NCBI GenBank assembly: GCA_015058045.1
Contig: SVDC01000040.1
Span: 1 to 34,778 of the forward strand
DNA: 34,778 nucleotides
Origin: Cellulosilyticum sp.
GTDB lineage: Bacteria > Bacillota > Clostridia > Lachnospirales > Cellulosilyticaceae
Direction: 5' to 3'
The notes beneath the pieces were generated by a model that was given only the letters and a program-made list of their open reading frames with translations, made no database searches and was not told the origin of the DNA. Every line of letters begins with the position of its first letter. The stretch's first letter is position 1. Shown here in pieces: positions 1 through 27,446 of this stretch. A program made the translations under genes and the position numbers.

Positions 1-10
1 TTTATAAATA

Positions 11-28
11 ATGCATATTATTATGCAT
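11..28. repeat. Inverted repeat upstream of an orphan promoter
   Basis: Seven-base arms ATGCATA/TATGCAT are separated by four bases. The ATGCAT word recurs at 70-79, inside the spacer of the promoter at 61-89. The placement suggests a regulator binding site, but no regulator is identified and A/T-rich palindromes also arise by chance. Confidence 0.4.
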
Positions 29-60
29 TGTTCCGATAAGAATTAATAAGAAAAATAATG

Positions 61-89
61 TTGTCATTCATGCATGCATATGCTATAAT
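61..89 (+). promoter_or_regulatory. Sigma-A promoter, plus strand
   Basis: TTGTCA (61-66) and TATAAT (84-89) are separated by 17 bases, with a TG extension at 81-82. It is the best promoter in the left 600 bases and the only convincing plus-strand one in the window. No open reading frame with a ribosome binding site follows; a terminator-like hairpin follows about 55-60 bases after the expected start. Confidence 0.65.
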
Positions 90-95
90 GGAAAA

Positions 96-176
96 AAATA
101 TATTTACCTTAGCATATTAACGCATTTTATAATGCTATCACAAAACAAGGGGTGAGTCAACCCCTTATTTTATTTT
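96..176 (+). ncRNA. Candidate small RNA of about 80 nt
   Basis: A transcript from the promoter at 61-89 would start near 96 and end at the U-rich tail near 176. It has a small hairpin with GCATT/AATGC arms near 122-135 and then the terminator hairpin. It contains no start codon with a Shine-Dalgarno site. It does not match an RNA family I recognise, so the call rests on promoter-terminator geometry only. Confidence 0.35.
147..176 (+). terminator. Rho-independent terminator, possibly bidirectional
   Basis: Stem AAGGGGT/ACCCCTT (147-153, 160-166), loop GAGTCA, followed by ATTTTATTTTT on the plus strand. On the minus strand the tail is TTGTTTTG, so it could also end a leftward transcript from the promoter at 351-380. 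Confidence 0.65.
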
Positions 177-350
177 TATCCTAAAAACTAACATCTTCTC
201 TTATTTTTAGATACAATTGATACTAGGTTATCATTATCTTTTTTGAGTTTCAAGGGAATAGCCCTGTAACTTCAAAAGTAACCTCATTTTCATTCTCAAA
301 CAAAGTAATACTTTTATATTATGTGTCCCTATTTTGTACGAGCGTTTAGA

Positions 351-380
351 AGTATAGCACTCTAAGCTAAAAGTTGTCAA
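351..380 (-). promoter_or_regulatory. Sigma-A promoter, minus strand, with no intact gene behind it
   Basis: TTGACA (375-380) and TATACT (351-356) are 18 bases apart. Downstream, about 310-205, one frame reads like protein (ENENEVTFEVTGLFP) up to a stop, and the reading continues in the neighbouring frame (LKLKKDNDNLVSIVSKN). This suggests a frameshifted relic. No start codon with a good ribosome binding site is visible. The 66-codon frame at 411-611 starts inside the terminator hairpin and is not accepted. Confidence 0.55.
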
Positions 381-596
381 TCATTCTGCACTTCCAATTT
401 ATTCATATCATTATCTCTTATTATTTTTCATTTTATCACATCTAATCTCATCACTTATTTTATATATGTGAGAATGCATCTTGCCCAATTCCAATTGCCA
501 TTTAAAATGTGAACTTCTGTCTATTTGTAAAGTCACGCTAATAAACACAATCGAGTAGGCGCTAAATAATGATAGAATTAAATCAATACTATTAGC

Positions 597-690: not shown

Positions 691-1635
691 TTATACCAAA
701 GTATCTACAACCATTCCCTCTAAATCTTCCATAAGTAAATTTGCTTTCTTCACCATATCTTTTACCTTTTTCATTACCTCTTCTTGATCTATATCACCAA
801 GCGCCTCTTTAACGCCTGCTTCAACATTGTTCTCTTTCTTTTCTGTTTCTGTCTGGGTCTCTTGAGCCTGTTCTTTCTGTTCTTGTTCCTCCTCTATTTT
901 CTCTTGTTCTTTCTTTGCTTCTTCCTCTTTTTCTTCAACGCTTTCAATTCCCTCTTTAGCTGCCATTAATACAATAGCTTGATTACCTTCTTCCATAATC
1001 TTTTCTGCCGCTTTAAAAGCATCTTCCATGGCATGAGATTTGGCATTTTCTTTACGTATTTCTGAAAGACCAGCAGCATATCCTTCTTTTGTCCTCTGTA
1101 ATGTAGCGATTTTCTCTTCTTTTTCTTGAGCACCTGCATCCAAATCTAACATGGTAACTTGTGCATCTGTTAGCTTACCCATACTCTGTAATTTCTCTTT
1201 TTGTTCTGGACCTAACAATCCAGAGCGCTGTTTTTCAATTAGGGCATTTATTTCCTCTTCTTCTGGACTCCCTTCTTCAATACCATATGCAGCTTTTAAT
1301 TCCTCTTTACGTTTATTTATATTGTTAAGCTCTTCATTGACACCTTCGATTTCTTTATCCAACATATCGATTTGACTCATCATTTCCTTTTCTATGTCTT
1401 GTATCTCTTTTCCTTTCTTATAGGCATCATCTATAAGCTGACGTGCCATACGCTGAACATCTTTTTTCTTTTCATCCACTGCATTTTGTGATTGTGGCGT
1501 TATTTTATTAAGAAATGCCTGTCCGTCAATTATATTACTTGATTTTTTATCTCCTGCCTCTTTAGTATTTTTATTCATTTGATTAAACGGGTTAACCCCT
1601 AAATCTGTATAGCTATTAATAACAATATTACCCAT
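691..1635 (-). CDS. Coiled-coil protein of unknown function in the sigma-28 regulon
   Basis: I do not recognise this 314-aa protein. The start is the ATG at 1635, eight bases after GGAG, rather than an in-frame ATG seven codons upstream that overlaps this site. Residues ~1-50 are polar and Asn/Ser-rich, with no signal peptide or membrane segment. From ~50 to the end it is almost wholly charged helix with heptad-like runs, including a Glu/Gln/Lys tract at ~235-275 (EEEQEQKEQAQ). A more ordinary amphipathic tail ends in MVVDTLV. The gene stands alone between its own promoter and terminator. The promoter is a perfect sigma-28 match (1690-1716), so it should be expressed with flagellin and other late motility genes. 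It could be a flagellum-secreted, chaperone or motor-associated protein, but no domain supports any of these. Low-complexity acidic coiled coils give misleading similarity hits. Confidence 0.85.
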   Translation of the reverse strand: MGNIVINSYTDLGVNPFNQMNKNTKEAGDKKSSNIIDGQAFLNKITPQSQNAVDEKKKDVQRMARQLIDDAYKKGKEIQDIEKEMMSQIDMLDKEIEGVNEELNNINKRKEELKAAYGIEEGSPEEEEINALIEKQRSGLLGPEQKEKLQSMGKLTDAQVTMLDLDAGAQEKEEKIATLQRTKEGYAAGLSEIRKENAKSHAMEDAFKAAEKIMEEGNQAIVLMAAKEGIESVEEKEEEAKKEQEKIEEEQEQKEQAQETQTETEKKENNVEAGVKEALGDIDQEEVMKKVKDMVKKANLLMEDLEGMVVDTLV

Positions 1636-1689
1636 ATTTTTCTCTCCCCTCTCCATTTAATATTTCATATATAAATGATATCTTATTTT

Positions 1690-1878: not shown

Positions 1879-1909
1879 AAAAAAGAGGTAATCCTAAGAC
1901 TACCCCTTT
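1879..1909 (-). terminator. Terminator of the second rplL gene
   Basis: On the minus strand, GGGGTAGTC pairs with GATTACCTC around the loop TTAG (two G-U pairs), followed by TTTTTT. It lies 25 bases after the stop codon. Confidence 0.8.
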
Positions 1910-1933: not shown

Positions 1934-2302
1934 TTATTTTAATGTAACCTTAGCGCCAACTTCTTCTAATTTAGTTTTGATTGCTTCAGCTCCTTCTTTA
2001 GCTACGCCTTCTTTAAGCATTTTTGGAGCGCCATCTACAGCTTCTTTAGCTTCTTTTAAACCAAGACCTGTGATTTCACGAACCACTTTAATAACTTTGA
2101 TTTTTTCTGAACCAGCTTCTGTTAATTCAACATCGAAGTCTGTTTTTTCTTCTGCTGCTGCCGCTGGACCTGCTGCAACCATAACACCTGCTGCTGCTGA
2201 TACACCAAATTCTTCTTCACAAGCTGCTACTAATTCATTTAATTCTAAAATAGTAAGTTCTTTTACTGCATCTATAATTTCTTGAATTGATAATTTTGCC
2301 AT
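1934..2302 (-). CDS. rplL: 50S ribosomal protein L7/L12, second copy
   Basis: 122 aa, the full family length. It has the N-terminal dimerisation and L10-binding region, the Ala/Gly-rich hinge ([13 protein letters not shown], ~40-53) and the C-terminal factor-binding domain ending [10 protein letters not shown]7/L12 dimers form the ribosomal stalk that recruits EF-Tu, EF-G, IF2 and RF3. The start is the ATG eight bases after GGAGG; the in-frame GTG just before it is too close. It differs from the copy at 2937-3308 at only a few residues (A for T near 31, a shorter hinge, G for E and T for A near the end), so it is recent or kept alike by conversion. Unlike the other copy it has no rplJ partner: it follows directly after its own L10 leader and attenuator. 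Two intact rplL genes in one genome are rare. Confidence 0.97.
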
Positions 2303-2323
2303 CACTATATCCTCCTTTTAATT

Positions 2324-2366
2324 TAAAGAAAAAGTCACTTTGCTTCAATCCGCAGGCAAAGTGACT
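2324..2366 (-). terminator. Attenuator of the second L10 leader
   Basis: An 11-bp perfect stem, AGTCACTTTGC/GCAAAGTGACT (2333-2343, 2356-2366), is followed on the minus strand by CTTTTTCTTT. It stands just before the ribosome binding site of the second rplL, so it must be read through for that gene to be expressed. The same element precedes rplJ at 3894-3933. Confidence 0.85.
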
Positions 2367-2460
2367 TCTATTATTTTTAGTCGATCTATCTTTTTATCTA
2401 TAAGACCTCGGTAGGTTGATTTACGTTACACTCAAAAGAGCACCTACTATCTGCGGTGTG
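2367..2460 (-). promoter_or_regulatory. L10 (rplJL) autoregulatory leader, second copy, without rplJ
   Basis: This carries the same landmarks as the leader of rplJ at 3934-4020: ACCGCAGA, AGTAGGTG, then AACGTA and CCTACCGAGGTCTTAT in the same order and spacing, with AGTAGGT pairing to ACCTACC. In Firmicutes this leader binds the L10(L12)4 complex and shifts folding toward the attenuator. Here it controls an L7/L12 gene alone, which implies a duplicated leader-rplJ-rplL unit that lost rplJ. Confidence 0.85.
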
Positions 2461-2487
2461 GTATATTACTATGAACAAGCAAATAGA

Positions 2488-2516
2488 AGTATATCATTTA
2501 CAGATTTAAAGTTCAA
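2488..2516 (-). promoter_or_regulatory. Sigma-A promoter of the second rplL
   Basis: TTGAAC (2511-2516), 17 bases, TATACT (2488-2493). The -10 box is the same as in the rplJ promoter. Confidence 0.75.
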
Positions 2517-2883
2517 TGTTTTGTAGCTTCCAATTTATGCATGTGTTTATATTGTCTTATTGTAAAGATATTACAATACCCCCTATCCCTTATAAATAGT
2601 AGCCAAATAACCTTTATTTTTTCTTATCCTTATGTATTATTTCCATTATTTCACTTCACCTCATAAAGCCCTCTACTCTCTGAAAAGTATTTACTCAACA
2701 CTTATAATACTCTTTTTGTATTGACAGTGCACTTCACTCAAATAGTCTTCTAAGCAACTTAAATTCTACAAACTCCCAATAAACTCAAATTAATAATGGT
2801 ACAATTTATGCTGGTAATCTCAATTCTATCTCTAATACTAATCAATCTCCTCTAGGTTAATACATTTAACTTTTTAACATAGC
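2517..2883. other. Gene-free spacer between the two rplL units
   Basis: No gene is supported. Two things stand out. A dyad TATTGTAA/TTACAATA with a 5-base loop lies at 2558-2578, upstream of the rplL promoter. A plus-strand open stretch at 2783-2860 reads like protein (NNGTIYAGNLNSISNTNQS) but has no start codon or ribosome binding site and is preceded by a stop; it may be the tail of a lost gene. The rest is A/T-rich and featureless. Confidence 0.5.
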
Positions 2884-2915
2884 AAAAAAGGCAACCCCTA
2901 GGGATTGCCTTTTTT
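2884..2915 (-). terminator. Terminator of rplJ-rplL
   Basis: AAAAAAGGCAA pairs with TTGCCTTTTTT around a CCCTAGGGG-type core, ending in a T run on the minus strand. It ends the first rplJ-rplL unit, so the second rplL needs its own promoter. Confidence 0.85.
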
Positions 2916-2936
2916 ATACATCAATTAATCGATGAA

Positions 2937-3308
2937 TTATTTTAAAGTTACTTTAGCGCCAACTTCTTCTAATTTAGCTTTGATTGCTTCAGCTTCTTCT
3001 TTAGCTACGCCTTCTTTAAGCATTTTTGGAGCGCCATCTACAGCTTCTTTAGCTTCTTTTAAGCCAAGACCTGTGATTTCACGTACAACTTTGATTACTT
3101 TGATTTTTTCTGAACCAGCTTCTGTTAATTCAACATCGAAGTCTGTTTTTTCTTCTGCTGCTGCACCTGCTGGACCTGCTGCAACCATAACACCTGCTGC
3201 TGCTGATACACCAAATTCTTCTTCACAAGCTGTTACTAATTCGTTTAATTCTAAGATAGTTAATTCTTTAACTGCATCGATAATTTCTTGGATTGATAAT
3301 TTTGCCAT
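2937..3308 (-). CDS. rplL: 50S ribosomal protein L7/L12, first copy
   Basis: 123 aa, a standard L7/L12: helical N-terminal domain ([16 protein letters not shown]), flexible Ala-rich hinge (~40-54) and C-terminal domain with [18 protein letters not shown], the translation-factor docking surface. The start is the ATG eight bases after GGAGG; the upstream in-frame ATG is discarded. It lies 72 bases after rplJ, the usual order, and shares its promoter and L10 leader. This is the ancestral copy by context. It is nearly identical in DNA and protein to the copy at 1934-2302. Confidence 0.98.
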
Positions 3309-3380: not shown

Positions 3381-3866
3381 TTATGCTTCTTTCTCTGCAA
3401 CTTGTTTGATAACGCGTGCAAAGCTTGCAATAGGTGATTTGAAGCTTCCGAGTAAACGACCAAGTAACTCTTCTCTTGGAGCGATGTTACCGATTGCCAT
3501 CATACCTTTAGCATCGTAGTAAGTACCTTCTACTACACCTGATTTGAATTCTAATTTATCGTTTTCTTTAGCTACTTTAGCAAGGATTCTTGGTCCTGCT
3601 GTTGCGTCAGCGTAAGAAATAGCGATAGCTGTTGGTCCTTCAAGATCTTTAGAAATCTCTGCGAACTCAGTACCTTCGATTGCGAAGTTAACCATAGTGT
3701 TTTTGTAAACTTTGTACTCAACACCAGCTTCACGAAGTTCTTTACGAAGTTTTGTATCTTGTTCTACTGTAAGACCACGGTAGTCTACTAATAAAACTGA
3801 AGATGCTCCGTTAAGTTTTTCTTTGATTTGGTTAACAATCACTTGTTTTTGTTCTACTTTTGCCAT
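3381..3866 (-). CDS. rplJ: 50S ribosomal protein L10
   Basis: 161 aa. L10 anchors the L7/L12 dimers to 23S rRNA at the stalk base, and in complex with L12 represses its own leader. The N-terminal part has the family pattern (MAKVEQKQVIVNQIKEKLN, then SVLLVDYRGLTV), and the C-terminal helix that holds L12 ends FARVIKQVAEKEA. The start is the ATG seven bases after GGAGG; the longer frame upstream begins within the attenuator and is rejected. In most Firmicutes rplJ directly follows rplA. Here rplA ends about 12 kb away at 15949, with a glycan cassette between. Confidence 0.98.
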   Translation of the reverse strand: MAKVEQKQVIVNQIKEKLNGASSVLLVDYRGLTVEQDTKLRKELREAGVEYKVYKNTMVNFAIEGTEFAEISKDLEGPTAIAISYADATAGPRILAKVAKENDKLEFKSGVVEGTYYDAKGMMAIGNIAPREELLGRLLGSFKSPIASFARVIKQVAEKEA

Positions 3867-3893
3867 TGTTACACCTCCTTGATTTCTTGCAAT

Positions 3894-3933
3894 AAAAAAA
3901 TCCACTTTGCTTTTGCGCCCGCAGTCAAAGTGG
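3894..3933 (-). terminator. Attenuator of the rplJ leader
   Basis: Stem CCACTTTG/CAAAGTGG (3902-3909, 3926-3933) followed by ATTTTTTT on the minus strand, 28 bases before the rplJ start codon. It is the terminator half of the L10 leader switch. Confidence 0.88.
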
Positions 3934-4020
3934 TTACTTCCGTCCTAATATATAATAAGACCTCGGTAGGTTGTATACGTTATGCCACTGGCACCTACTG
4001 TCTGCGGTACAGTATTCTGC
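3934..4020 (-). promoter_or_regulatory. L10 (rplJL) autoregulatory leader, first copy
   Basis: The minus strand carries ACCGCAGA, CAGTAGGTG, AACGTAT and CCTACCGAGGTCTTAT, the conserved landmarks of the Firmicutes L10 leader, with AGTAGGT pairing to ACCTACC, and then the attenuator. Excess L10(L12)4 is expected to bind here and favour termination. Confidence 0.88.
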
Positions 4021-4034
4021 TTTCAACAAAAACA

Positions 4035-4063
4035 AGTATATCAGTTCATCCACAGGTTGTCAA
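4035..4063 (-). promoter_or_regulatory. Sigma-A promoter of rplJ-rplL
   Basis: TTGACA (4058-4063), 17 bases, TATACT (4035-4040), nearly ideal. It gives rplJL its own transcription start, away from rplKA. Confidence 0.88.
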
Positions 4064-4159: not shown

Positions 4160-5128
4160 TTAGCTTTTTAAAGGTACTGATATGTAATTACTACTTTTAG
4201 GTGGAAAATCATTTGTATCAAATCTTGGTATTTTAAACTTATTATCTTTTCCCACCATCGCTATCCCTACATTAGTCGATAGTCCTAATTTACAATTTTG
4301 ACTATCTATATATTTGATAACATCCTCACTATAAGAACCATACGGATAATTCATTACCCAATTTTTCGAGTCAATTAATTCACCCATGCACTCTAGTGCT
4401 TTATCAATATCCTTTACTAACTCTTCCTCAGTTAATTTATTTAGCCAATAGTGATCATAACCATGTAGCCCAAAGTGCATCCCACTATTCTTCATACATC
4501 TCATTTGATCATAGTTCATATAAAGTTCTCTAGCAAACTTCTCTTCATCTATCCCAACATATTCTTTAAATAAAGTACTTGTAATCTTGTTTCTTAAATC
4601 TTCACTTAAACCTTTCTGTAATACTCTTTTAAAGAATATTATTTCCTTAGAATCAAAACGACTTTCTCCTGTATAAGTGTTAAACAATTCTTCATTACTC
4701 ATTATTTGATATTCTTGTCCTCTATAGTAATCTAGTTGCTTATATAACGCTTGAACAAGCTTCTCAATCTTAGCACTTGCTAAAATAAAGTGAATTTTAT
4801 TCACATCAAGTAATTTATTTTCTACAAATACTTTTCCTGGTACAAAGAATGACCCCTGTATCTTATATAGGTTTAGTATGGGAAAAACATAGTTAAAATG
4901 ATCAATATAACCATCATCAAAGGTAAGTAGCATTGCCTTCTCAGGTAGAGTATAACTTCCATTGTAGGCCTCAATTACTTCTTCCATAGATACTATATTA
5001 AAATTGTTTGCTAGAAATTCTACTTGATTTTTGAATAATTCATAGTCTAGTCCTTTAATTTCTGGATAGCGACTTTTTCTTAATTCTCTTACATAATGAT
5101 ACATCACAACATATAATTGATTATCCAC
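4160..5128 (-). CDS. Polysaccharide deacetylase (NodB/CE4 family), cytoplasmic
   Basis: 322 aa with a GTG start, nine bases after AGGA. The CE4 fold is marked by LLTFDDGY (~68-75; the catalytic base Asp and the metal-binding Asp), by HGYDHYWL (~225; the two metal-binding His) and by NYPYGSYS (~262). Unlike most cell-wall deacetylases it has no signal peptide, so it should act in the cytoplasm on a soluble or nucleotide- or lipid-linked sugar, removing an N-acyl group. It is the last gene of the cassette, 22 bases after DAHP synthase. A plausible role is to free an amine that another enzyme of the cassette then acylates (inference). The long insert (~100-220) between motifs is unusual for the family. 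Confidence 0.85.
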   Translation of the reverse strand: MDNQLYVVMYHYVRELRKSRYPEIKGLDYELFKNQVEFLANNFNIVSMEEVIEAYNGSYTLPEKAMLLTFDDGYIDHFNYVFPILNLYKIQGSFFVPGKVFVENKLLDVNKIHFILASAKIEKLVQALYKQLDYYRGQEYQIMSNEELFNTYTGESRFDSKEIIFFKRVLQKGLSEDLRNKITSTLFKEYVGIDEEKFARELYMNYDQMRCMKNSGMHFGLHGYDHYWLNKLTEEELVKDIDKALECMGELIDSKNWVMNYPYGSYSEDVIKYIDSQNCKLGLSTNVGIAMVGKDNKFKIPRFDTNDFPPKSSNYISVPLKS

Positions 5129-5150
5129 AACTCTTCTTCCTATTCTATTA

Positions 5151-5978
5151 CTATTTTTCTAGGCTATTCCTAAACTCTACTGTTTTTCCAATATCTTTTA
5201 CCAACAAATGAAACTGTTCTATTGTCAGTTGTTGCTCACTATCACTTAGTGCTTTGCTAGGATTTGGATGAACTTCTATTTCTAACCCATCACATCCTGC
5301 CATAATGGCACTTAAAGTCATCGGATGTATGAGCTCTATTCTACCTGTTGCATGTGATGGGTCTACTACTACTGGTAAATGTGTTAAAGTCTTTGCAGCT
5401 GCAACTGCACTTAAATCTAGTGTATTTCTTGTATAGTTTTCCATTGTTCGAATACCACGCTCACATAGAATAACCTTTTCATTTCCTTCATTCATAATAT
5501 ACTCTGCACAATTTAACCATTCTTCAATCGTTGCATTTAATCCTCTTTTCAAAAGAACAGGTTTATTAGTACGACCTACTTCAACCAACAAACTGAAGTT
5601 TTGCATATTCCTTGCACCAATTTGTAAGACATCAGAATACTGACTAACCATTGCAACGTCTCTTGTATCCATAACCTCTGTAATAATTGGTAACCCAACT
5701 TCTCGTCCTGCTTTATATAGTAATTCAAGTCCCTCTCTACCCAGGCCCTGGAATGCATAAGGAGAAGTTCTAGGTTTATACGCTCCACCTCTAAGCATAT
5801 TACCACCAGCCAATTTTACACCTAATGCTGCATCCATAATTTGCTCTTCAGATTCTACGCTACATGGTCCACCGATAATCAGGAAATCTCTTCCTATTAC
5901 TAAATCCTTTACTTTGATTTCTGTTTCTCTTTTTTTACCCTGTTCATCTAATTTATTTGCTAGTTTAAGATTCTTCAT
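5151..5978 (-). CDS. DAHP synthase-like aldolase (type I, short form)
   Basis: 275 aa from the ATG at 5978, which overlaps the end of the acyl carrier protein gene by 14 bases and implies translational coupling. Family motifs are complete: GGPCSVE, the phosphate-binding KPRTSPYAFQGLG, GARNMQNF, LLKRG, CERGIRT and VVDPSHATG (metal and substrate binding). Canonical members condense phosphoenolpyruvate with erythrose-4-phosphate to give DAHP, the first step to chorismate. The N-terminal extension is only ~30 residues, so the ACT-like/ferredoxin-like feedback domain of full-length type I-beta enzymes is missing. Its place in a glycan cassette beside AMP-ligase, ACP and a Gfo/Idh/MocA enzyme suggests a dedicated pathway, either an aromatic or seven-carbon building block or condensation with another aldose phosphate. 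The motifs cannot tell these apart, and it could be the cell's ordinary aroF-type gene. Confidence 0.88.
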   Translation of the reverse strand: MKNLKLANKLDEQGKKRETEIKVKDLVIGRDFLIIGGPCSVESEEQIMDAALGVKLAGGNMLRGGAYKPRTSPYAFQGLGREGLELLYKAGREVGLPIITEVMDTRDVAMVSQYSDVLQIGARNMQNFSLLVEVGRTNKPVLLKRGLNATIEEWLNCAEYIMNEGNEKVILCERGIRTMENYTRNTLDLSAVAAAKTLTHLPVVVDPSHATGRIELIHPMTLSAIMAGCDGLEIEVHPNPSKALSDSEQQLTIEQFHLLVKDIGKTVEFRNSLEK

Positions 5979-6219
5979 TGCTACGAACTTTACCTTCAAT
6001 TATTTCTATTAATTTCCCAACCACTCTAAATTCTGGCTTTGCTATTTCTTCATCTGAAAACTCAATTCCAAACTCCTCTTCAATACCCACAATAAATTGT
6101 ATAATCCCTAGTGAATCTATATATCCACTTTCTACATAATTAAGTTCATCAATATGTTGCATATCTTCTATGGTATACTTTTTTTGAATTTCATTTAATA
6201 CATATTCTCTTACTGTCAT
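5965..6219 (-). CDS. Acyl carrier protein
   Basis: 84 aa from the ATG at 6219 (six bases after AGGTG); a GTG three codons earlier is the alternative. It has the four-helix ACP pattern with the phosphopantetheine attachment Ser in GYIDSLGIIQF (~33-43) and the acidic helix VGIEEEFGIEF that docks partner enzymes. It is not the fatty-acid ACP: the context is AMP-ligase upstream (23 bases) and DAHP synthase downstream (overlapping), like D-alanyl or amino-acid carrier systems. The ligase probably loads a carboxylic acid onto the pantetheine arm for transfer to a sugar or ring (inference). Confidence 0.9.
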   Translation of the reverse strand: MTVREYVLNEIQKKYTIEDMQHIDELNYVESGYIDSLGIIQFIVGIEEEFGIEFSDEEIAKPEFRVVGKLIEIIEGKVRSNEES

Positions 6220-6242
6220 CTTTCTCACCTATCTCCTATTTA

Positions 6243-7766
6243 TTAGCATTCATAATTGTTTTGTACATATGCGAGTAATTTATTTTTCATCACCTTACCC
6301 ATGGCATTCTTAGGTAATTCATTTGAAAAGAAAATCTTGTGTGGTTGTTGGAAATCCGCTAGATTCTTAGCACAATGAACTTGAACCATACGTTTTTTTA
6401 TTTCTTGTTCATTATTAGATACAATAATCACTGCCACAACTTCTCCCAGTTTATCATCAGGATATGCAAAGACAGCACATTCAGCTACAAGATCCATTTT
6501 TAATAAACATTGCTCAATATCTGGTGGGTATACATTAATACCTCCAGTGATAATAACTTCTTTCTTTCTTCCTGAAAAATATAAATATCCATCACAGTCA
6601 ACATATCCCATGTCACCTGTTCTAAAATAACCGTTTTGTACTGCCTGATTAAATACATCTAATTTATTGTAATAACCATTGCACATTAAATTACTACTAC
6701 AAGCAATTTCTCCTATCTTACCACTCTCTAATTCTTTACCTACATCATCTAAAATTTTAATTTGTGCACCTGGTAATACTCTCCCTACTGATTGCTTTTT
6801 ATCCATACTCTCTGCAAAATTAATATTGGTAATCGTTGATGTCTCTGATGTTCCATACATCTCATGAAAATCACATTTTAATAAATCAATCAAATGATTT
6901 TTAACCTGCTCATCTAGTAATGCAGAAGAAGATACCAAACATCTTAAACTTTCTATATTAAATTCATTTTCATTATCTAGTACAACTGCAATCTGGCTAA
7001 GTTGAGCTGATACTGCTATAGTAAAAGACACTTTCTTCTCTTCTACACATTGTAACCATAAACTTGGTGTAAAACGTGGTAAAACCACCGCTGTTGCACC
7101 AATTAATAACGGCATAATCACTAGTCTTTCTGCTAAAGAATGATATAGTGGGGTCGCTGCTAAAACTACATCTTCTTTGCTTATATCATATAATTTAATA
7201 TGCGTCATTGCTCTTTGATACTTACTTTGCTGCGTTAAATCTATTGGTTTAGGATTACCCGTTGAACCTGAGGTCATTGTAATAATCAAAGTTTCATTTC
7301 CTTTAACTTGATTAATTATAGGTCGTTCTCCACATATATTTAGTGCATCTTGTAAACATGGATAACCATTATACTGTTCATCCAAGCATATACTTATACC
7401 TTCTATTTCTAGATTACCTTCTACTAAGTATTGCTCAAGAAAATGTTTTCTTGCTATAATATGCTTTACATCTCCACATTCAAAAGCGTTTTTTATAGAT
7501 TCTATGGGCAGAGTAGGATTAATAGGTACTAAGCCAATACCTAAATTAGCAGCAGCAAAGATAAGACCCACAGACTCTATACTATTATTCATAGGTAAAC
7601 CTATTTTGTCATTATATTGAATACCATTTTCCAACAAAAAGTTTGAATACTGGCTAACACGTTTTGAAAACTGTTCATAGGTCAAACTATGATTTTCACA
7701 CCATATTGCTATCTTATCCGGAAATTTTCCCGCAGTCTCATAAAATAAATCAGCTAACTTCTTCAT
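6243..7766 (-). CDS. AMP-dependent acyl ligase (ANL superfamily)
   Basis: 507 aa, a complete ANL adenylation enzyme: P-loop MTSGSTGNPKP (~166-176), YGTSETS (~302), the hinge region FRTGDMGYVDCDGYLYFSGR (~375-394), IITGGINVYP and the catalytic Lys in PKNAMGKVMK near the C-terminus. It activates a carboxylic acid with ATP and passes it to a thiol. With an acyl carrier protein gene 23 bases downstream, the acceptor is probably that ACP rather than free CoA. The substrate cannot be read from sequence. The start ATG is six bases after AGGAG. The enzyme is intact and in the middle of the cassette operon. Confidence 0.93.
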   Translation of the reverse strand: MKKLADLFYETAGKFPDKIAIWCENHSLTYEQFSKRVSQYSNFLLENGIQYNDKIGLPMNNSIESVGLIFAAANLGIGLVPINPTLPIESIKNAFECGDVKHIIARKHFLEQYLVEGNLEIEGISICLDEQYNGYPCLQDALNICGERPIINQVKGNETLIITMTSGSTGNPKPIDLTQQSKYQRAMTHIKLYDISKEDVVLAATPLYHSLAERLVIMPLLIGATAVVLPRFTPSLWLQCVEEKKVSFTIAVSAQLSQIAVVLDNENEFNIESLRCLVSSSALLDEQVKNHLIDLLKCDFHEMYGTSETSTITNINFAESMDKKQSVGRVLPGAQIKILDDVGKELESGKIGEIACSSNLMCNGYYNKLDVFNQAVQNGYFRTGDMGYVDCDGYLYFSGRKKEVIITGGINVYPPDIEQCLLKMDLVAECAVFAYPDDKLGEVVAVIIVSNNEQEIKKRMVQVHCAKNLADFQQPHKIFFSNELPKNAMGKVMKNKLLAYVQNNYEC

Positions 7767-7792
7767 TGTTTTCTCCTATAATATCTCTTGTA

Positions 7793-8968
7793 CTAGTCTA
7801 CTCGCACTCTCTGTCCCAATTCAGCAGACATATAAGCTGCATATGTTACCTTTATTGTGTCATATGCTAATTTAAAACCTGACTTTGGTTCTCTATTATA
7901 GTAAATAGCTTCCATAAAATCTTGCATTTCATCTGTATATCCTCTAATGATTTCATCTGCTATAAATGGTTTATTCCAACCTAGTTTACCTGGAAGCATT
8001 TCTGAAAGATATACATTATCCAACCCATGTTCATCTAAAAAATATGTACTCATTAAATCATTCATAGTCAATGTGCAGTTAATAGCTGCATCATTACAAT
8101 ACAATTCAACATAATTTTTACTTCCACCTAGACATGTATCTGTAGCAATTACAACGGCTCTTGACTGATCTGAAAATTTAATAATAACTGTACCTGTATC
8201 TTCTACATCTTGCGGTCTTGCCATAATATGTCTATGCTCATAATCAGATAATAGTGGGGTAACTGTTCCCATATCGGCCATTACACTTTCGATTGTAATT
8301 TTAACCCCATGAGCCTCCGCTTCTTGTTGCTTTAACCATAATATAGCCGATAAAGGATGAGTTCCTGTACGAATAAAAGTTCCTCCACCTGTTTTACTCC
8401 ACTCACCTGCTACATGCGAACTTGAACCTTTTAAACTCTCTTCACCCTTCATATATAAAATCTTACTTTTCTTTGCTTTAATAATTTCTGCAGCTTTTAC
8501 AACAGCAGGCGCATAAACAAAATTTTCAGCATACATAAATTTTTTATCTGATTTTTCTAATACTATTTTAAGATTTTCTATTGAACTCAATACCTTTTCG
8601 TACATAGCTCTCTTGGATACATTCTTACCTATAGGTGCTCTATCTCCTTCTTGTCCAAAATAGCCCATTAGAGGTTTTTCACAAATCACATGTTTTCCTG
8701 CTTTAATAGCCTTAATAATCATGTCCTCATGTACATAAGGCGGTGTGCATATATCAATTACATCAATTTCTGGATCTTTTAATAAGTCCTCAAAATCATA
8801 TGATATCCTTTCAAATCCATATTTCTTTTGAGCTTCTATAAGTTGTTCTGTTCTACGCGCAACAATCGTCTTAAACCTTAATTTTATACCACTCACTCTA
8901 TGTAGGGCATTCATATGTAACTCTGTTGCGCGCCCTGCTCCTACCATTCCTATACAAATATGTTCCAT
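7793..8968 (-). CDS. Gfo/Idh/MocA family sugar oxidoreductase
   Basis: 391 aa. The N-terminal Rossmann domain starts GMVGAGRATELH (~7-18), followed by DICTPPYVHEDMI and the family signature CEKPL (~95-99), which holds the active-site Lys. The C-terminal substrate domain includes GGGTFIRTGTHPLSAILWL (~193-211), with the His typical of the catalytic site. These enzymes oxidise or reduce a hydroxyl of a (nucleotide) sugar, cyclitol or related ring with NAD(P). It is 26 bases from the ligase and 28 from the GNAT gene, in one operon. A similar family member acts in aminoshikimate-type pathways, which is interesting beside DAHP synthase, but the other enzymes of that pathway are not in view. Confidence 0.9.
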   Translation of the reverse strand: MEHICIGMVGAGRATELHMNALHRVSGIKLRFKTIVARRTEQLIEAQKKYGFERISYDFEDLLKDPEIDVIDICTPPYVHEDMIIKAIKAGKHVICEKPLMGYFGQEGDRAPIGKNVSKRAMYEKVLSSIENLKIVLEKSDKKFMYAENFVYAPAVVKAAEIIKAKKSKILYMKGEESLKGSSSHVAGEWSKTGGGTFIRTGTHPLSAILWLKQQEAEAHGVKITIESVMADMGTVTPLLSDYEHRHIMARPQDVEDTGTVIIKFSDQSRAVVIATDTCLGGSKNYVELYCNDAAINCTLTMNDLMSTYFLDEHGLDNVYLSEMLPGKLGWNKPFIADEIIRGYTDEMQDFMEAIYYNREPKSGFKLAYDTIKVTYAAYMSAELGQRVRVD

Positions 8969-8996
8969 GTAACCCCTCGCAATTCATTATTCTTGA

Positions 8997-10049
8997 TTAA
9001 TTATTATTTCTTAATTGATTAGGTCTATCTTGATCCCCATCAGCTTTAAAAAACAAGGTTTCCTCATCCTTATAATGACACCAAATATCAACATTCTCTC
9101 TCAAGAAAGGTTCAAAATAATTCGGTATTATATTTATATCCTGATCATCTTTAAGTTTAAATCCTGCTTCTAAGATATACTCTTCTTTAAATCCTAAAGT
9201 GTACATATCTATATATTCATAATTTCCTTCTATCATTTCCTGATATAATGTAGAACTTATCTTAGAAAACAATTCTTGTTTTCCAATATAATCCATAATT
9301 CTAATCACTTTACTTCCACCATATTCAACATGACGTGTAACTAATAAAGCGCCCACCTTATAATCTTCTTCTCGTATTCCATATACATTATACTTATAAT
9401 ATGGATGTTTAAAAAATCTCTTTTCAACATACCAACTATCTTTATATGGAATTGCATCAACAGCTTCCACTTTAAATTCCTTTTTCACTTCCTCCATAGA
9501 ATTAAACTTAATTACATACTTGTTCTTTTCCACTTTAGGAACACCAAATATTTCTTGTTTTTCAATCTTTGCTATTTTATATTCACTCATACTGGTATTT
9601 AAATAGTAATACTGTTTCATTTTGGCAACTTTTTCGCCAAAAAATAACCGTCTTAATGGAATAGTAGTATTTGAATTGGCCCCATTTCCAATATGTCTCT
9701 TACAATGAGTTAAATCATGTACTCTTCTAGCTAATTCAATACCTAATAATGGAATATTATCATGTTTATCATTTACTTTCCACATACTACCCCATATATA
9801 TTTTTTATCATATTCCTCTGTATAAGAAGTATTGATGAAACCAAAAATGCCTTCTATACATTTTGTTTCTTTATCAATAGCTAATACAAAATTAACATTA
9901 TCCTTATCTACATATTCATATTCAAATAATATTCTATCTTTTGCCATAATATGACCTTCACACCAATACTCATTGATAAATTGCATAATAGATTGTATAT
10001 CCCCCCTATTAGCTAATCTAATGTCATACTTCTCGTCATATTTATTCAT
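8997..10049 (-). CDS. GNAT-like acyltransferase
   Basis: 350 aa. The N-terminal half resembles a GNAT fold: YDIRLANRGDIQSIMQFINEYW (beta1-alpha1; written as a pattern, ~8-30), an acidic beta strand NFVLAIDKE, EGIFGFIN and then ELARRVHDLTHC. The C-terminal half (~190-345) is less clear and may be a second degenerate GNAT-like domain. Proteins of this size and layout are common in surface-polysaccharide loci. It is predicted soluble. In this cassette it could move the acyl group from the ACP onto an aminosugar or nonulosonic acid (inference). The ribosome binding site is weak (AAGAGAAAATA before ATG). No CoA-binding Q/RxxGxG/A motif is obvious, so the family call is moderate. Confidence 0.7.
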   Translation of the reverse strand: MNKYDEKYDIRLANRGDIQSIMQFINEYWCEGHIMAKDRILFEYEYVDKDNVNFVLAIDKETKCIEGIFGFINTSYTEEYDKKYIWGSMWKVNDKHDNIPLLGIELARRVHDLTHCKRHIGNGANSNTTIPLRRLFFGEKVAKMKQYYYLNTSMSEYKIAKIEKQEIFGVPKVEKNKYVIKFNSMEEVKKEFKVEAVDAIPYKDSWYVEKRFFKHPYYKYNVYGIREEDYKVGALLVTRHVEYGGSKVIRIMDYIGKQELFSKISSTLYQEMIEGNYEYIDMYTLGFKEEYILEAGFKLKDDQDINIIPNYFEPFLRENVDIWCHYKDEETLFFKADGDQDRPNQLRNNN

Positions 10050-10205
10050 TATTTTCTCTTGACCCCTATCATTATTTTTAATATAAACAAGCCCTCAATA
10101 ACCTCTAAACAGGTTGCTTACTCTTGATACATAATCACTTCTCATTCAACATTTTACCACATTCTTTTTTTCATCTAAACACTTTCCAAAATAGCCAGAA
10201 GATTC

Positions 10206-11372
10206 CTATTTAGGATTCCTCTCTATTATACGATTTTTAGGAATTGCATAACATACTGTTTCTGAATCTATCATTTCCATATAATGGCGTACATATAGAC
10301 TATATTCATCATTTAATGTCTTCATTATTAACGGTAACTTATAAAAATGTTCTAAATCATGATACAGACAAATAGCTAATATCGGTTTTTGCTTTCTAAT
10401 TATTTCAGCAGCTCCTATTAATGCTTTTTCCTCTGCTCCTTCAATATCCATTTTAATAAATGTAATTTCTTCACCTTTTAAAACATTATCCAAAGAATCT
10501 GCATTAATACTAACACCGCCATCGCTTGTTATATGCCCCGCCGTTAACTGTGATTGGAATTTCAACACATCCTTTTTATCCCAACACGCCATATTATATG
10601 TATCTACATTAGTAAGTTGATTTCTCTTTATATTCTCATTTAACTCTATATATGTATTACTATCCGCTTCAATTGCTATATACTTTTTATATTTACCATT
10701 AGTTATTTTTTTGAAAATTTCTAATGTATCTCCATTAAAGCTTCCACAATCACAGAATACTTCTGTTTCACTTAGTTTTACTATATCTTTAGCAAAATAT
10801 TGGTTTACTGTCAGATCTTCAATTCCTTTTAAATAATCATTATTTAAAGATATCTTATAGTTTAAAATACCTAGATAAATTTCTTTAGAACGTTCATCTG
10901 CTAAATATGAATATACTTTTTCATATTCATCAATATTTTTTTCAATAATACTATACGCCGTTTCTTCCCTATATGTCGCATACGCTTTTGCTATACCTAT
11001 CCCCTTAACATCAATATTACTTTCACTGATTCCTAGTGAAAGTAGTTGTCTTTTAATCTCCATATACTGGCTTGCAATAATAATATAAATACTTTTACTA
11101 CTTTCATTCATTTCTACAATTTGATCAGGTGATAATATCTTGATTCCATTAAGATTAGTACCCCATTTAGCTTTTGAATTATCTGCAAAACACTTTATAC
11201 AATGATTTACATTATATTCTTTCAAAAAGTCGTATACCATTATAGCACCACTACCAGTTCCCCATATAACAACTTCTCCAATATCTCGTATATTTTGCAC
11301 ATATTCTCTTGCATTAGTTTCAAACAGTCCTTTATCTACCAGTTTTTCTCTGAATTCACTCTGACATCTCAT
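10206..11372 (-). CDS. FkbM-family methyltransferase with N-terminal Rossmann-like domain
   Basis: 388 aa. Residues ~30-130 form a nucleotide-binding-like domain (VVIWGTGSGAIMVYDFL ... IIIASQ), as seen in several sugar-modifying proteins. Residues ~205-385 are the FkbM methyltransferase: FCDCGSFNGDTLEIF (S-adenosylmethionine motif I), AIEADSNTY, and FIKMDIEGAEEKAL, the conserved MDIEGAE block. FkbM enzymes O-methylate hydroxyls of natural products and glycans. The start ATG is eight bases after AAGGAG. It is separated from neuA by 421 bases and from the GNAT gene by 156, so it may head its own transcript from the -10-like box at 11469-11476. Confidence 0.88.
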   Translation of the reverse strand: MRCQSEFREKLVDKGLFETNAREYVQNIRDIGEVVIWGTGSGAIMVYDFLKEYNVNHCIKCFADNSKAKWGTNLNGIKILSPDQIVEMNESSKSIYIIIASQYMEIKRQLLSLGISESNIDVKGIGIAKAYATYREETAYSIIEKNIDEYEKVYSYLADERSKEIYLGILNYKISLNNDYLKGIEDLTVNQYFAKDIVKLSETEVFCDCGSFNGDTLEIFKKITNGKYKKYIAIEADSNTYIELNENIKRNQLTNVDTYNMACWDKKDVLKFQSQLTAGHITSDGGVSINADSLDNVLKGEEITFIKMDIEGAEEKALIGAAEIIRKQKPILAICLYHDLEHFYKLPLIMKTLNDEYSLYVRHYMEMIDSETVCYAIPKNRIIERNPK

Positions 11373-11468
11373 TATATTTTCTCCTTAACCCTTTTTAAGT
11401 ATTCTCTATTTCTACAACCATCGACTACACTTAATACATTATATAATACTTGTATAATACCATAGTAT

Positions 11469-11476
11469 ATATCGAC
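11469..11476 (-). promoter_or_regulatory. Sigma-28-like -10 element ahead of FkbM
   Basis: GTCGATAT, identical to the -10 boxes of the flaG and fourth-flagellin promoters. No TAAA lies at the right distance (the 15-base position reads TCAC), so this is only half a promoter. The FkbM start codon is ~90 bases downstream. Confidence 0.35.
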
Positions 11477-11496
11477 AATTTATTTTTTTCTGTGAT

Positions 11497-11529
11497 AGTT
11501 AAGTTTCATCGTTAACATAAAACTTAACT
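11497..11529. repeat. Perfect 10-bp inverted repeat
   Basis: Arms AGTTAAGTTT/AAACTTAACT are separated by 13 bases. On the plus strand it is followed by TTTT; on the minus strand the tail is not T-rich. It may be a weak terminator for neuA read-through or a protein-binding site. Confidence 0.45.
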
Positions 11530-11793
11530 TTTAAATTTCACTAAATGCCATTTATCCCTTACACCATAGTCAACTTTTATCTTGTGAATCTAATACGCAT
11601 TTTCTGTCTCATGATTAATTAAAAACTATATTTCATAGATCTACTACCTCATATTTTAGAATATCTCAATAGCGGCTCGATTGTTATATACTTACCTTTA
11701 AACTGCAAATAATATATAGTCACTATTTACCCCAAATCCTTTAAACACTAAACGTGTGTACCTTAATAAGCTCTCTTACTTTATATCACTTAT

Positions 11794-12492
11794 CTAAAGC
11801 TCGTTACTTACCTCATACTCTAAAATTAATTTAAGTACCTCTAAATCAAATGGTTCATCTATATCTAGAGAGTATTTCTCTTCCATTACATAAGCAAGTT
11901 TATTATCATTTAAACTTACGGTTGTATCAAAGTTCTGATCTAATTTGTTAATATAGATACATCCATTTACCTTATAATACATTTTAAAATCCTGTCTTCT
12001 TACTGTACTATTTTCATTTAATAGTGCATTTAAATTTCCCTCTGTATCTATTGTTCTCATAAGAATAGGATGCTCTTTTACTTGACAAACACTTACAAGG
12101 GAATCTTGACTACTTTTACTGATTTTTTCTATAGCTTCATCAATATGCCAACTTTTTCTTAAAGGTTGAGTAGGCTGTAAAACTACTACATAATCATACT
12201 CTTCTCCTATTGCTTTATAATAATCAACCATATGTACAATTGCATCAATGGTTTTTGCATGATCTTCAGCCAGATAAGCTGGTCTTAATATTGGGACCTC
12301 TGCCCCTAACTCTTTAGATACATCCGCTATCTTTTGACTATCTGTAGATACCACAACTTTAGATATATATTTTGACTGTAATGCCTGCTCAATGGTATAA
12401 GCAATGAGTGGTTTTCCTAAAACTTCAATAATATTCTTATTCGGAATTCCTTTGCTACCACCTCTCGCAGGAATAATTGCTAACACTTTCAT
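11794..12492 (-). CDS. neuA: CMP-nonulosonate (N-acylneuraminate) cytidylyltransferase
   Basis: 232 aa, the size of the bacterial catalytic core without the extra C-terminal esterase domain. The nucleotide-binding signature IIPARGGSKGIPNKNI is at ~5-20, followed by KVVVSTDSQKI, VVLQPTQPLRKSWHIDEAI (~102-120) and the metal-binding YSLDIDEPFD near the end. It couples CTP to the sugar made by NeuB, giving the CMP-activated donor for a glycosyltransferase. It follows neuC by 34 bases with a strong GGAGG, so neuBCA is one operon. Sequence alone does not separate CMP-sialic from CMP-legionaminic acid synthetases. Confidence 0.92.
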   Translation of the reverse strand: MKVLAIIPARGGSKGIPNKNIIEVLGKPLIAYTIEQALQSKYISKVVVSTDSQKIADVSKELGAEVPILRPAYLAEDHAKTIDAIVHMVDYYKAIGEEYDYVVVLQPTQPLRKSWHIDEAIEKISKSSQDSLVSVCQVKEHPILMRTIDTEGNLNALLNENSTVRRQDFKMYYKVNGCIYINKLDQNFDTTVSLNDNKLAYVMEEKYSLDIDEPFDLEVLKLILEYEVSNEL

Positions 12493-12526
12493 TCTATATA
12501 GCCTCCTAAAATCAAAATTGATATGT

Positions 12527-13672
12527 CTATGCTCTTTTTAATGAATCCATATCTATAAAATATTTTTGGCATTCTATATTCCAAACTTCTTCACCCGATA
12601 TTATTCTATTGAAGATTTCTGCACTATTACCTGCACCATAATGTGATATAGTCTCATTATGCATAAAAGCTGTCTTTTTAATCGCTTCTAGTATAGCTTC
12701 TTTTTCTTCAGGTACCCAGATGATATTACTTTGTACCAAACTATCATACCTTCCTTTTTGGCGTAGTCCTATATCTATAGCTGGTATGCCATATACCGAA
12801 GTCTCTCTGATACCTGCACTAGAGTTTCCTATCATAAATTGAGCATTTTTTAATATCGTCAAGAAATATTCAAATTTAATAGATGGAAATATCCTGTATC
12901 TTTCTCCTTTTAATCGTTTTAACTCTCTTAAAATAAGATCTGTCCCCTTATCATTATTAGGATATACTACAATATAATTTTTTTCTGATTCTATTATAGC
13001 GTCTATTACTTGTTTTATATGTTCTTCTAAGTATTCAACTTGTGTCGTAACTGGATGATACATCAAGATACCATACTCATCAAACTCTATATCATATTTT
13101 TCTTTGGCTTCCGTCATATTAGGAAGATCATCTGAAAACATAATATCTATATCTGGTGACCCAATAATATAAATACTCTCTTCCTTTTCTCCTAATTGAA
13201 TAATTCTTCTTTTTGCTTCCTCATTAGCTACAAAGTGTAAGTGAGCTAGTTTAGTAACAGCATGCCTTATGGATTCATCTATCGTTCCTGATACCTCTCC
13301 ACCTTCTATATGGGCTACCCTTATATTATTAAATGCCCCTACTATAGCACCTGCTAATGCTTCTAGTCTATCTCCATGTACTACAATTAGATCGGGTTGA
13401 TATTCTTTTACATAATTGCTAAATCCAAGTATAGTATTACTTAATGTAATATCCATACTTGAATTTTCTTGCTGATTAACAAATTTAAAGGTATCTTGAA
13501 AACCATCTTTTTCTATTTCCTTGTATGTAGCCCCATATTTCGATAACATATGCATACCTGTTACAAATATTTGTAATTCATATTGTGGATTATGCTTTAT
13601 CTGATACATTAGTGATTTCATTTTCCCATAATCTGCTCTTGTTCCAGTTAAAAAAACAATTTTCTTTGGCAT
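12527..13672 (-). CDS. neuC: UDP-GlcNAc 2-epimerase, hydrolysing (NeuC/LegG type)
   Basis: 381 aa from the ATG at 13672, one base after the neuB stop codon; a TTG three codons upstream overlaps neuB and sits too near its GGAGG. Motifs: FLTGTRADYGK (~5-15), VVHGDRLEALAGAI (~92), VAHIEGGEVSGTIDESIRH (~112-130) and the UDP-binding GNSSAGIRE (~283). It releases UDP and gives ManNAc from UDP-GlcNAc, or a 2,4-diacetamido hexose in legionaminic acid synthesis. It is the first committed step of the pathway continued by neuB and neuA. No LegB (dehydratase), LegC (aminotransferase) or LegH (acetyltransferase) gene is in the window, which favours the plain sialic acid route unless those genes lie elsewhere. 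Confidence 0.92.
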   Translation of the reverse strand: MPKKIVFLTGTRADYGKMKSLMYQIKHNPQYELQIFVTGMHMLSKYGATYKEIEKDGFQDTFKFVNQQENSSMDITLSNTILGFSNYVKEYQPDLIVVHGDRLEALAGAIVGAFNNIRVAHIEGGEVSGTIDESIRHAVTKLAHLHFVANEEAKRRIIQLGEKEESIYIIGSPDIDIMFSDDLPNMTEAKEKYDIEFDEYGILMYHPVTTQVEYLEEHIKQVIDAIIESEKNYIVVYPNNDKGTDLILRELKRLKGERYRIFPSIKFEYFLTILKNAQFMIGNSSAGIRETSVYGIPAIDIGLRQKGRYDSLVQSNIIWVPEEKEAILEAIKKTAFMHNETISHYGAGNSAEIFNRIISGEEVWNIECQKYFIDMDSLKRA

Positions 13673-13673
13673 A

Positions 13674-14714
13674 TTACTCAATGTCCTCCCATTTCAGATG
13701 ACAGTCAGCTTCCATATTTACTTTTATCTTTTTGCCTAATAAAGAATTATAATGCTCAGCCTTAATTTCACCTGTACCTGGTCTTTTTACCCATATATTA
13801 TTTTCTGTTAGCACATCTCCTACCTTTAAATCTTTGGTGGTTACCACTGTAGCAAATGCAAAATCAATCGTTACTTGTTCCTCTTTCAGCGCTTCTTTTT
13901 TACCCCCTCGCATTTTATAAATCTCTTTACTTCCCTTAATCAGTTCCGCTAAAGCATTCTTGTCCATAGAACAAATAATATCAGGACCTGGTCTATCCAT
14001 GTTATCTGTGAAATGTCTCTCTAAAATAGAAGCTCCTAAAGCTGAAGCTGCAAGACAGGCATTATTATTTAAAGAGTGGTCCGATAATCCAATTACAGCA
14101 TTAGGAAATGCTTCTTGAAGCTCTGTCATTGCCCCTAGTCTAACCCACTCTGGTTTTGTAGGATAGAGATTTGTACAGTGAAGGAGGGCATACTGTATAT
14201 TATACTTTTCCAATATATCTACAGTCTTTTGAATGCTTTCTATATCATTCATACCAGTAGATACAATCATCGGTTTTCCACACTTAGCGATTTTCTCTAT
14301 GAGAGGGTAGTTATTACATTCCCCTGAGCCAATTTTATAAGCTTTTACATTCATTCTTTCTAATCTTTCCGCCGCAGCTCTTGAGAAAGGAGTGCTAATA
14401 AAAATCATACCTTTTGATTCAACATATTCCTTTAGTTTAATTTCATCTTCTTCACTTAACGCACACCTTGCCATAATATCATATATAGATACATCTGCAT
14501 TCCCAGGTATAACCTCTTTTGCAGCTTTGGACATTTCATCCTCCACTACATGTGTTTGATGTTTAATAATCTCTGCTCCACTTTCATAAGCAGCATCTAC
14601 CATCTCACAAGCCACTTGTAAACTTCCCTCATGATTAATACCTATCTCAGCTATAACAACTGGTGGGTAATCTTCTCCTATTCTTCGATTACCGATTTCT
14701 ATAAATGGTTTCAT
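13674..14714 (-). CDS. neuB: Nonulosonic acid synthase (sialic/legionaminic acid synthase)
   Basis: 346 aa from the ATG at 14714, nine bases after AAAGGAG; a GTG nine codons earlier has no site. The TIM-barrel NeuB domain shows [13 protein letters not shown] (~16-28), [16 protein letters not shown] (~127), [13 protein letters not shown] (~177), GLSDHSLNN and ERHFTDN (~232). The C-terminal SAF/antifreeze-like domain (~280-346) contains [17 protein letters not shown] and closes the active site of the partner subunit. It condenses phosphoenolpyruvate with ManNAc or a related 2,4-diacetamido sugar to give the nine-carbon acid. It heads neuB-neuC-neuA, each gene overlapping or close to the next. 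The name legI would apply if the product is legionaminic acid. Confidence 0.94.
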
Positions 14715-14818
14715 TTTATTCTTCTCCTTTGTTCCTTGCACAAATATATGTATAAATTTTTCTAATAAATAAACTACTAAAAATGGTGTTTATTATTTAT
14801 TCTAGTATGAGTTAATTG

Positions 14819-26625: not shown

Positions 26626-27438
26626 TTATTGTAATAATGAAAGCACTTGGTTTGGTTTTGCATTTGCTTGTGCAAGCATTGATTGTGTTGCTTGAGAAAG
26701 GACGTTTGTTCTTGTGAACTCCATCATTTCTTTAGCCATATCTGTATCACGAATACGTGATTCTGCTGCTTGTAAGTTTTCTGCTGAGTTATCTACACTT
26801 GAAATAGTGTGTTCAAGTCTATTTTGTACAGCTCCAAGTTTTGCTCTAAATCCTGATACTTTATTAATTGCTTCATCAATAGTATCAATTGCACTTTTAG
26901 CACTTGTTTGTGTTGATATATTTAATCCACTTACGCTTAAAGCACTTGCTCTCATTGATTCCATTGTAATAGCAATAGTTTGCCCACTATTTGCCCCTAC
27001 TTGGAATTCTACTTTCCCTGTTGAACCATTAAGTAAGTTCATTTTGTTAAATTGTGTTTTATTTGCAATTTCTGTAATTTCTGATGTAAGTTGATCTACC
27101 TCAGCTTGAATATTTTCACGGTCTGCTGTAATATATGTACCATTTGCTGATTGTACTGATAATGTTCTTAAACGTTGTAACATGCTGTGTGTTTCATCTA
27201 ATGCACCTTCAGCTGTTTGAATCATTGAAATACCATCTTGAGCATTTCTTGATGCTTGATTAAGACCATTTACTTGTCCTCTCATTTTTTCTGAGATTGC
27301 AAGACCTGCTGCATCATCTCCTGCACGGTTAATTCTTAAGCCTGAAGATAATTTTTCTGATGCTTTAGATTGTGCTCCTGATGTTTTGTACATTTGTCTT
27401 TGTGTGTTGATTGCTGATAAATTGTGGTTAATAATCAT
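26626..27438 (-). CDS. hag: Flagellin, array copy 3
   Basis: 270 aa, a minimal flagellin with only D0 and D1 domains. N-terminal region: MIINHNLSAINTQRQMYK, EKLSSGLRINRAGDDAAGLAISEKM (patterns), QTAEGALDETHSMLQRLRTL. C-terminal region: AESRIRDTDMAKEMMEF to AQANAKPNQVLSLLQ. The middle (~140-195) differs from the other copies (MESMRASALSVSGLNISTQTS as a pattern). No hypervariable outer domain is present, so surface variation must come from glycans or these ~50 residues. It is 81 bases after copy 2 with no terminator or promoter between, so copies 2 and 3 are probably co-transcribed; its leader has the CsrA-type hairpin. Confidence 0.97.
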   Translation of the reverse strand: MIINHNLSAINTQRQMYKTSGAQSKASEKLSSGLRINRAGDDAAGLAISEKMRGQVNGLNQASRNAQDGISMIQTAEGALDETHSMLQRLRTLSVQSANGTYITADRENIQAEVDQLTSEITEIANKTQFNKMNLLNGSTGKVEFQVGANSGQTIAITMESMRASALSVSGLNISTQTSAKSAIDTIDEAINKVSGFRAKLGAVQNRLEHTISSVDNSAENLQAAESRIRDTDMAKEMMEFTRTNVLSQATQSMLAQANAKPNQVLSLLQ

Positions 27439-27446
27439 AATTTATT

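Follow-up and report, generated by a model that had tools for sequence, protein, structure and literature searches.

In a genome of Cellulosilyticum sp., two rplL genes lie in tandem, and the second follows directly on an L10 leader with no rplJ in between. From the sequence, we consider it probable that this second unit is a tandem copy of a leader-rplJ-rplL unit that lacks rplJ, that is, a one-gene L12 operon placed behind an L10-leader attenuator. The window analysed here is the whole stretch of 34,778 nucleotides from contig SVDC01000040.1. Its source genome (G000; 4.16 Mb in 140 contigs) belongs to the same genus as two of the genomes used below for comparison, G003 and G005.

Two L12 units at one locus

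The first unit (unit 1, leader-rplJ-rplL-A) consists of the following features:

4035..4063, minus strand: promoter, TTGACA-17-TATACT, the -10 preceded by TG
3886..4025, minus strand: L10 leader (RF00557), Rfam score 60.8 bits, E 1.8e-7 for the whole window
3994-4008 with 3956-3970, minus strand: predicted L10(L12)4 site
3915-3924, minus strand: stretch containing the 3' strand of the putative antiterminator
3926-3933 and 3902-3909, minus strand: putative terminator arms
3381..3866, minus strand: rplJ (L10), 161 aa, Shine-Dalgarno (SD) sequence and start codon in 3864-3880
2937..3308, minus strand: rplL-A (L7/L12), 123 aa, full L7/L12 by Pfam
2884..2915, minus strand: terminator-like hairpin 3' of rplL-A, GGCAATCCCTAGGGGTTGCC at 2890-2909 followed by a T-run, absent from the pattern-scan list

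The second unit (unit 2, leader-rplL-B) and the region between it and rpoB contain:

2488..2516, minus strand: promoter, TTGAAC-17-TATACT, the -10 preceded by TG and the -35 weaker than that of unit 1
2319..2474, minus strand: L10 leader (RF00557), Rfam score 59.7 bits, E 2.9e-7 for the whole window
2443-2457 with 2401-2415, minus strand: predicted L10(L12)4 site
2346-2356, minus strand: stretch containing the 3' strand of the putative antiterminator
2356-2365 and 2334-2343, minus strand: putative terminator arms
1934..2302, minus strand: rplL-B (L7/L12), 122 aa, immediately 3' of this leader, with its SD and start codon within 2300-2318
1882..1909, minus strand: terminator-like hairpin 3' of rplL-B, absent from the pattern-scan list
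691..1656, minus strand: ORF of 321 aa between unit 2 and rpoB, without a Pfam match
341..425, minus strand: putative promoter relic, hexamers at 351-380, similar to the promoter region of unit 2 in G000 and to that in G005
1..179, minus strand: region upstream of rpoB, its first 77 bases being the end of rpoB contig C21

A first-pass annotation of this DNA had described a near-identical rplL pair 0.6 kb apart. In alignment, the two genes indeed show only 19 mismatches over 366 bases and a one-codon difference, and 634 bases separate them. The same annotation had the second leader running straight into rplL, and rplL-B is the next gene; when the stretches between the units and 3' of rplL-B were searched for traces of rplJ by short-word blastn, only short scattered matches appeared. 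Lacking rplJ between leader and rplL-B, unit 2 does not qualify as an rplJL operon. Both L12 domains of the rplL-B product score above their cut-offs (PF00542, 105.7 bits; PF16320, 68.9 bits). The dN/dS ratio is 0.07 between rplL-A and rplL-B and 0.18 between rplL-B and the gene of G001; for the low value within the pair, gene conversion can be an alternative source. Sigma-A-type promoters of the predicted form (TTGACA or TTGAAC, 17 bases, TATACT) were located at 4063-4035 and 2516-2488. As the promoter scan overall did not exceed chance (21 sites vs 17.1 expected), these assignments rest on place and quality.

The order of the locus is read as nusG, rplK, rplA, a glycan gene block, leader-rplJ-rplL, leader-rplL, the 321-aa ORF and rpoB. 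It can be followed through to rpoB because the 77-base edge overlap joins the window with C21, in which rpoB starts about 100 bases further in. An unrelated draft genome (G152) likewise has a 77-base overlap between two contig ends. A third unit hidden in the assembly gap was considered and is disfavoured, given that the overlap fits direct adjacency. The glycan block (4160-14741) lies between rplA and rplJ, encodes a polysaccharide deacetylase, a NeuB-like protein, a UDP-GlcNAc 2-epimerase and a cytidylyltransferase, and interrupts the rplKA-rplJL order that several of the family's other genera show. Elsewhere in the window, three flagellin genes stand in a row (26626-29460), the outer two being identical at 243 of 271 positions with the stop counted.

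Attenuator elements in the second leader

Both leaders match the full Rfam L10_leader model (RF00557) above its gathering score of 44 bits, that of unit 2 over positions 1-138 of 138. This upholds the first-pass proposal that the second leader is an L10 leader. In the B. subtilis rplJL operon, as described in passages of PMC4538822, L10(L12)4 binds a first hairpin composed of a kink-turn and UAA and thereby prevents formation of the antiterminator, leading to termination. The same set of parts can be recognised here by sequence in both units: a sigma-A promoter with extended -10, a kink-turn/UAA hairpin, a putative antiterminator and a putative intrinsic terminator. Unit 2 carries the kink-turn strands ACCGCAGAyAG and CCGAGGU together with TAA, and accordingly the basal ACC/GGU stem, CCGAGG, UAA and a 6-base CCGCAG/CTGCGG helix; the hairpin and U-run are present in the Rfam alignment. 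The B. subtilis attenuator differs from that of unit 2 in governing rplJ and rplL jointly, and those passages of PMC4538822 describe no stand-alone rplL.

Aligned base by base, as the first-pass annotation had suggested, the two units are identical at 52 of 53 marked RNA-element positions vs 67 of 141 positions elsewhere (Fisher p ~1e-12, with the elements having been marked after the alignment was seen). We assigned the CCGCAG/CTGCGG helix as the likely antiterminator, an assignment of our own that rests on pre-terminator folds and covariation. In folds of transcripts ending before the last arm of the terminator, the helix forms in both units. Among 76 distinct leaders, 28 hold a perfect Watson-Crick partner downstream, compared with 0.6 expected from shuffles, and the variable position shows four pair types (C-G, T-A, A-T and G-C); the remaining 48 form four or five of the six pairs. 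The unit 2 leader of G005 (L004) shows a compensatory change in the antiterminator, with CCGTAG/CTACGG in place of CCGCAG/CTGCGG.

The marked terminator stem comprises 10 bases in unit 2 vs 8 in unit 1, and the terminator scan reports the unit 2 hairpin on the opposite strand only. Minimum-energy folds of the whole leaders were not clearly better than those of shuffled sequences (z -1.03 and -1.63). The fold and scan results speak against a working second leader, as do its weaker -35 box, its long branch in the leader tree and its loss of a UACUGU motif.

Tandem units in the genus and across the order

Seven genomes of the genus were searched, and the locus was present in four of them (G000, G001, G003 and G005). 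Full leader-rplJ-rplL units number one in G001 (4,714,237 bases), which we take to be C. lentocellum, two in G005 and three in G003, where two share one contig and the third adjoins rpoB; G000 has one full unit and the L12-only unit. The copy number of rplL across the genus is thus 1, 2, 2 and 3, and the leader-rplL form occurs in one (G000) of the four genus genomes having the locus. Three small genomes (G002, G004 and G006; 81-86% complete) gave no match for leader, rplJ, rplL or rpoB and were left out of the single-copy count. Beyond the genus, 13 of 17 genomes from the family gave a single match each for rplL and rplJ; the other four had neither.

That bacteria normally keep a single rplL, as the first-pass annotation stated, agrees with a survey of the order covering 245 genomes of at least 90% completeness. 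An L12 match was obtained in 236 of these, including two (G079 and G092) with a weak match only, and an L10 leader in 226. A second full rplL was found in only 3 of the 236 genomes, all three of this genus. Two or more PF00542 matches occurred in 13 of the 245 genomes; the extra matches in the ten genomes outside the genus (11 matches, 20.8-26.7 bits, four of them marked as passing the cut-off) were partial and were set aside as not being full rplL.

The linkage of leader to rplJ was examined in 80 named loci, the best 80 of 495. Within this set, all 67 leaders found by motif precede rplJ, unlike the unit 2 leader, which precedes rplL. Two loci of the set have two rplL genes, both from Cellulosilyticum, and rplL without rplJ was seen three times, each at the start of the stored stretch. 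Among the closest known counterparts of the present locus are those in Cellulosilyticum ruminicola JCM 14822 and Cellulosilyticum sp. RGIG8824, which share the same kind of leader and a second rplL near nusG-rplK-rplA or rpoB. Every extra unit of these two differs from unit 2 in retaining rplJ. Among the literature matches listed, none reported a lone rplL preceded by an L10 leader or rplJL units in tandem, and the passages of PMC3766115, PMC5733062 and PMC6925170 bearing on this subject do not describe a lone leader-rplL or tandem rplJL arrangement.

Duplication history and a putative promoter relic

The extra leader-rplJ-rplL units of the sister genomes go beyond what the first-pass annotation had noticed, as do the reading of unit 2 as a whole unit in reduced form and the apparent promoter relic before rpoB. 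Since G005 and G003 hold two and three full units, the second unit of G000 was probably a complete duplicate at first and lost its rplJ within the lineage of G000. The rplJ of G000 has a dS of 0.10 to that of unit 1 of G005 and of 0.45 to that of unit 2 in the same G005 genome, and therefore the duplication appears to be older than the split between G000 and G005. The leader tree places the unit 1 leader of G000 with that of G005 (support 100/99). The unit 2 leaders of the two genomes group weakly (63/64), and their promoter-leader regions are 72% identical over 224 bases. The leaders of three extra units sit on long branches (0.82 for unit 2 of the present genome, 0.75 and 0.56) vs a median of 0.2. 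The rplL, rplJ and leader trees did not settle the order of the duplications, and the rplL trees are probably blurred by gene conversion.

In unit 1, both rplJ and rplL begin with a similar SD-ATG-GCAAAA sequence, and this repeat is a plausible substrate for a deletion of rplJ. When the 5' UTR of rplL-B was compared with 14 others, the best five were all rplJ 5' UTRs, followed in sixth place by a tie between an rplJ and an rplL at 6.0, with the rplJ of G000 itself at 5.5. This ranking is consistent with a deletion across the repeat but does not prove it.

Just before rpoB, positions 341-425 look like the relic of a further unit. None of 500 block shuffles matched the unit 2 promoter region of G000 as well as this segment did, and the same held for that of unit 2 of G005 (0/500); for the match to unit 1 of G000, 92 of 500 shuffles were as good. 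A degraded leader behind the segment was sought and rejected, as Rfam gave none at E up to 1, so that the similarity is confined to the promoter region.

A predicted L12-only circuit

If unit 2 works in the manner of the B. subtilis attenuator, free L10(L12)4 would bind its first hairpin at the kink-turn and UAA and block the antiterminator, and transcription would then terminate ahead of rplL-B. When L10(L12)4 is short, the antiterminator would form and rplL-B would be transcribed. A single signal would in this way reach both units, with unit 1 responding by L10 plus L12 and unit 2 by L12 only, and the output of unit 2 would raise the supply of L12 relative to L10. By analogy with B. subtilis, extra L12 would thus be made only at times of L10(L12)4 scarcity, as the first-pass annotation had proposed. 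Free L12 is unlikely to be sensed by a leader that binds L10(L12)4, and the loop would close only for as long as L12 limits the complex. The sensor requires L10, and an excess of L12 by itself should therefore not switch off unit 2.

In terms of its history, the best reading of unit 2 is as a member of a tandem array that undergoes birth and death. As the extra units of relatives retain rplJ, the L12-only state may represent partial decay rather than design.

Alternative explanations

The main competitor, which we regard as unlikely though well short of negligible, is that unit 2 is simply a decaying duplicate: the array would grow and shrink, a redundant rplJ would have been lost, and rplL-B and its leader would not yet have eroded while serving no selected role. 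The variable rplL copy number within the genus, the long branches of three extra-unit leaders and the apparent remnant of a further unit just before rpoB are what such turnover would leave behind. Free decay, however, does not resemble the preservation of 52 of the 53 marked element positions amid drift, together with an intact ORF and a low dN/dS. That the array is an artefact of assembly or binning seems very improbable. The source is a draft of 140 contigs with 4.67% contamination, and a contig edge falls within this same locus; yet both rplL copies are inside one contig, with 19 mismatches in 366 bases between them and far more between their leaders, and the separate assemblies of C. ruminicola JCM 14822 and Cellulosilyticum sp. 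RGIG8824 each have two rplL genes on one contig.

A further explanation concerns regulation. Unit 2 might be expressed without regulation of the unit 1 type, giving a steady dose of L12, if loss of the UACUGU/ACAGUA hairpin and drift had shifted the balance of structures. In the fold of unit 1, the UACUGU stretch is paired with ACAGUA; unit 2 has lost the motif, and 16 of the 19 family leaders compared contain it, a set that leaves out the leader of G022, which missed the motif. In G008 and G009, however, each with a single-copy leader, UACUGU is altered as well, and the elements of the B. subtilis model can be identified in the sequence of unit 2. We give this explanation little weight, albeit somewhat more than an artefact, and retain as our preferred reading the rplJ-less tandem copy with its L10-leader attenuator.

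Orphan L10 leaders outside the genus

The first-pass annotation had pointed to related genomes as a place to look for L10 leaders not followed by rplJ. One such leader occurs in the order as an orphan in G166, with a weaker candidate under the cut-off in G168; the extra units of the other Cellulosilyticum genomes all keep rplJ. In the order survey, extra L10-leader matches outside the genus came from five genomes. Those of G011 (37 bits) and G118 (35.3 bits) are weak and overlap coding genes, and that of G152 is one leader at two overlapping contig ends; these three were discarded, leaving G166 and G168.

The orphan leader of G166 (C17:36235-36348, minus strand; L166 1501-1614) scores 68.5 bits and has, as judged by eye, its own promoter, UAA, a possible antiterminator and a terminator. 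Also by eye, GAGGUAAGG is able to pair with CCUAAUCUC, which would connect the binding site with a terminator arm. The leader heads ORFs of 155, 115 and 192 aa, none of them rplJ, in a prophage tail region after the tape-measure gene (phrog_4211, E 2.5e-72), and the 155-aa protein appears to be membrane-spanning. This protein had no match in phages or plasmids. The leader itself had no match in phages, and the strict leader pattern was absent from viral contigs. In G168, a leader-like element of 41.7 bits, under the cut-off, lies on C36 and C37 (L171 1501-1631 and L174). It precedes a gene for an apparently membrane-located protein of 100 aa, next to a transposase that has an integrase core domain. 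Over the 3,131 bases compared, C36 and C37 do not differ, and they may be one place assembled twice.

These orphans, one of them a strong case, make the L10 leader look movable. A broader idea, which we put forward tentatively and think rather doubtful, is that the leader serves as a sensor module that can move between genes and responds in trans to L10(L12)4, having been rewired here to an L12-only operon that tunes L12 against L10 and captured elsewhere by unrelated genes such as the prophage cassette behind the tape-measure gene.

Implications for the supply of L12

L12 stands apart from other ribosomal proteins in that each ribosome contains several copies of it. An rplL gene that has its own L10 leader and is not accompanied by L10 lets one ask, in a natural setting, if the supply of L12 is limiting and if an L10 leader can be used in trans as the signal of a regulon. 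The genus shows the steps side by side, from one unit to two and three and to the L12-only form, so that the question of the circuit is accessible to ordinary reporters. The spare L12 gene of this Cellulosilyticum looks like a natural rewiring of the balance between ribosome parts.
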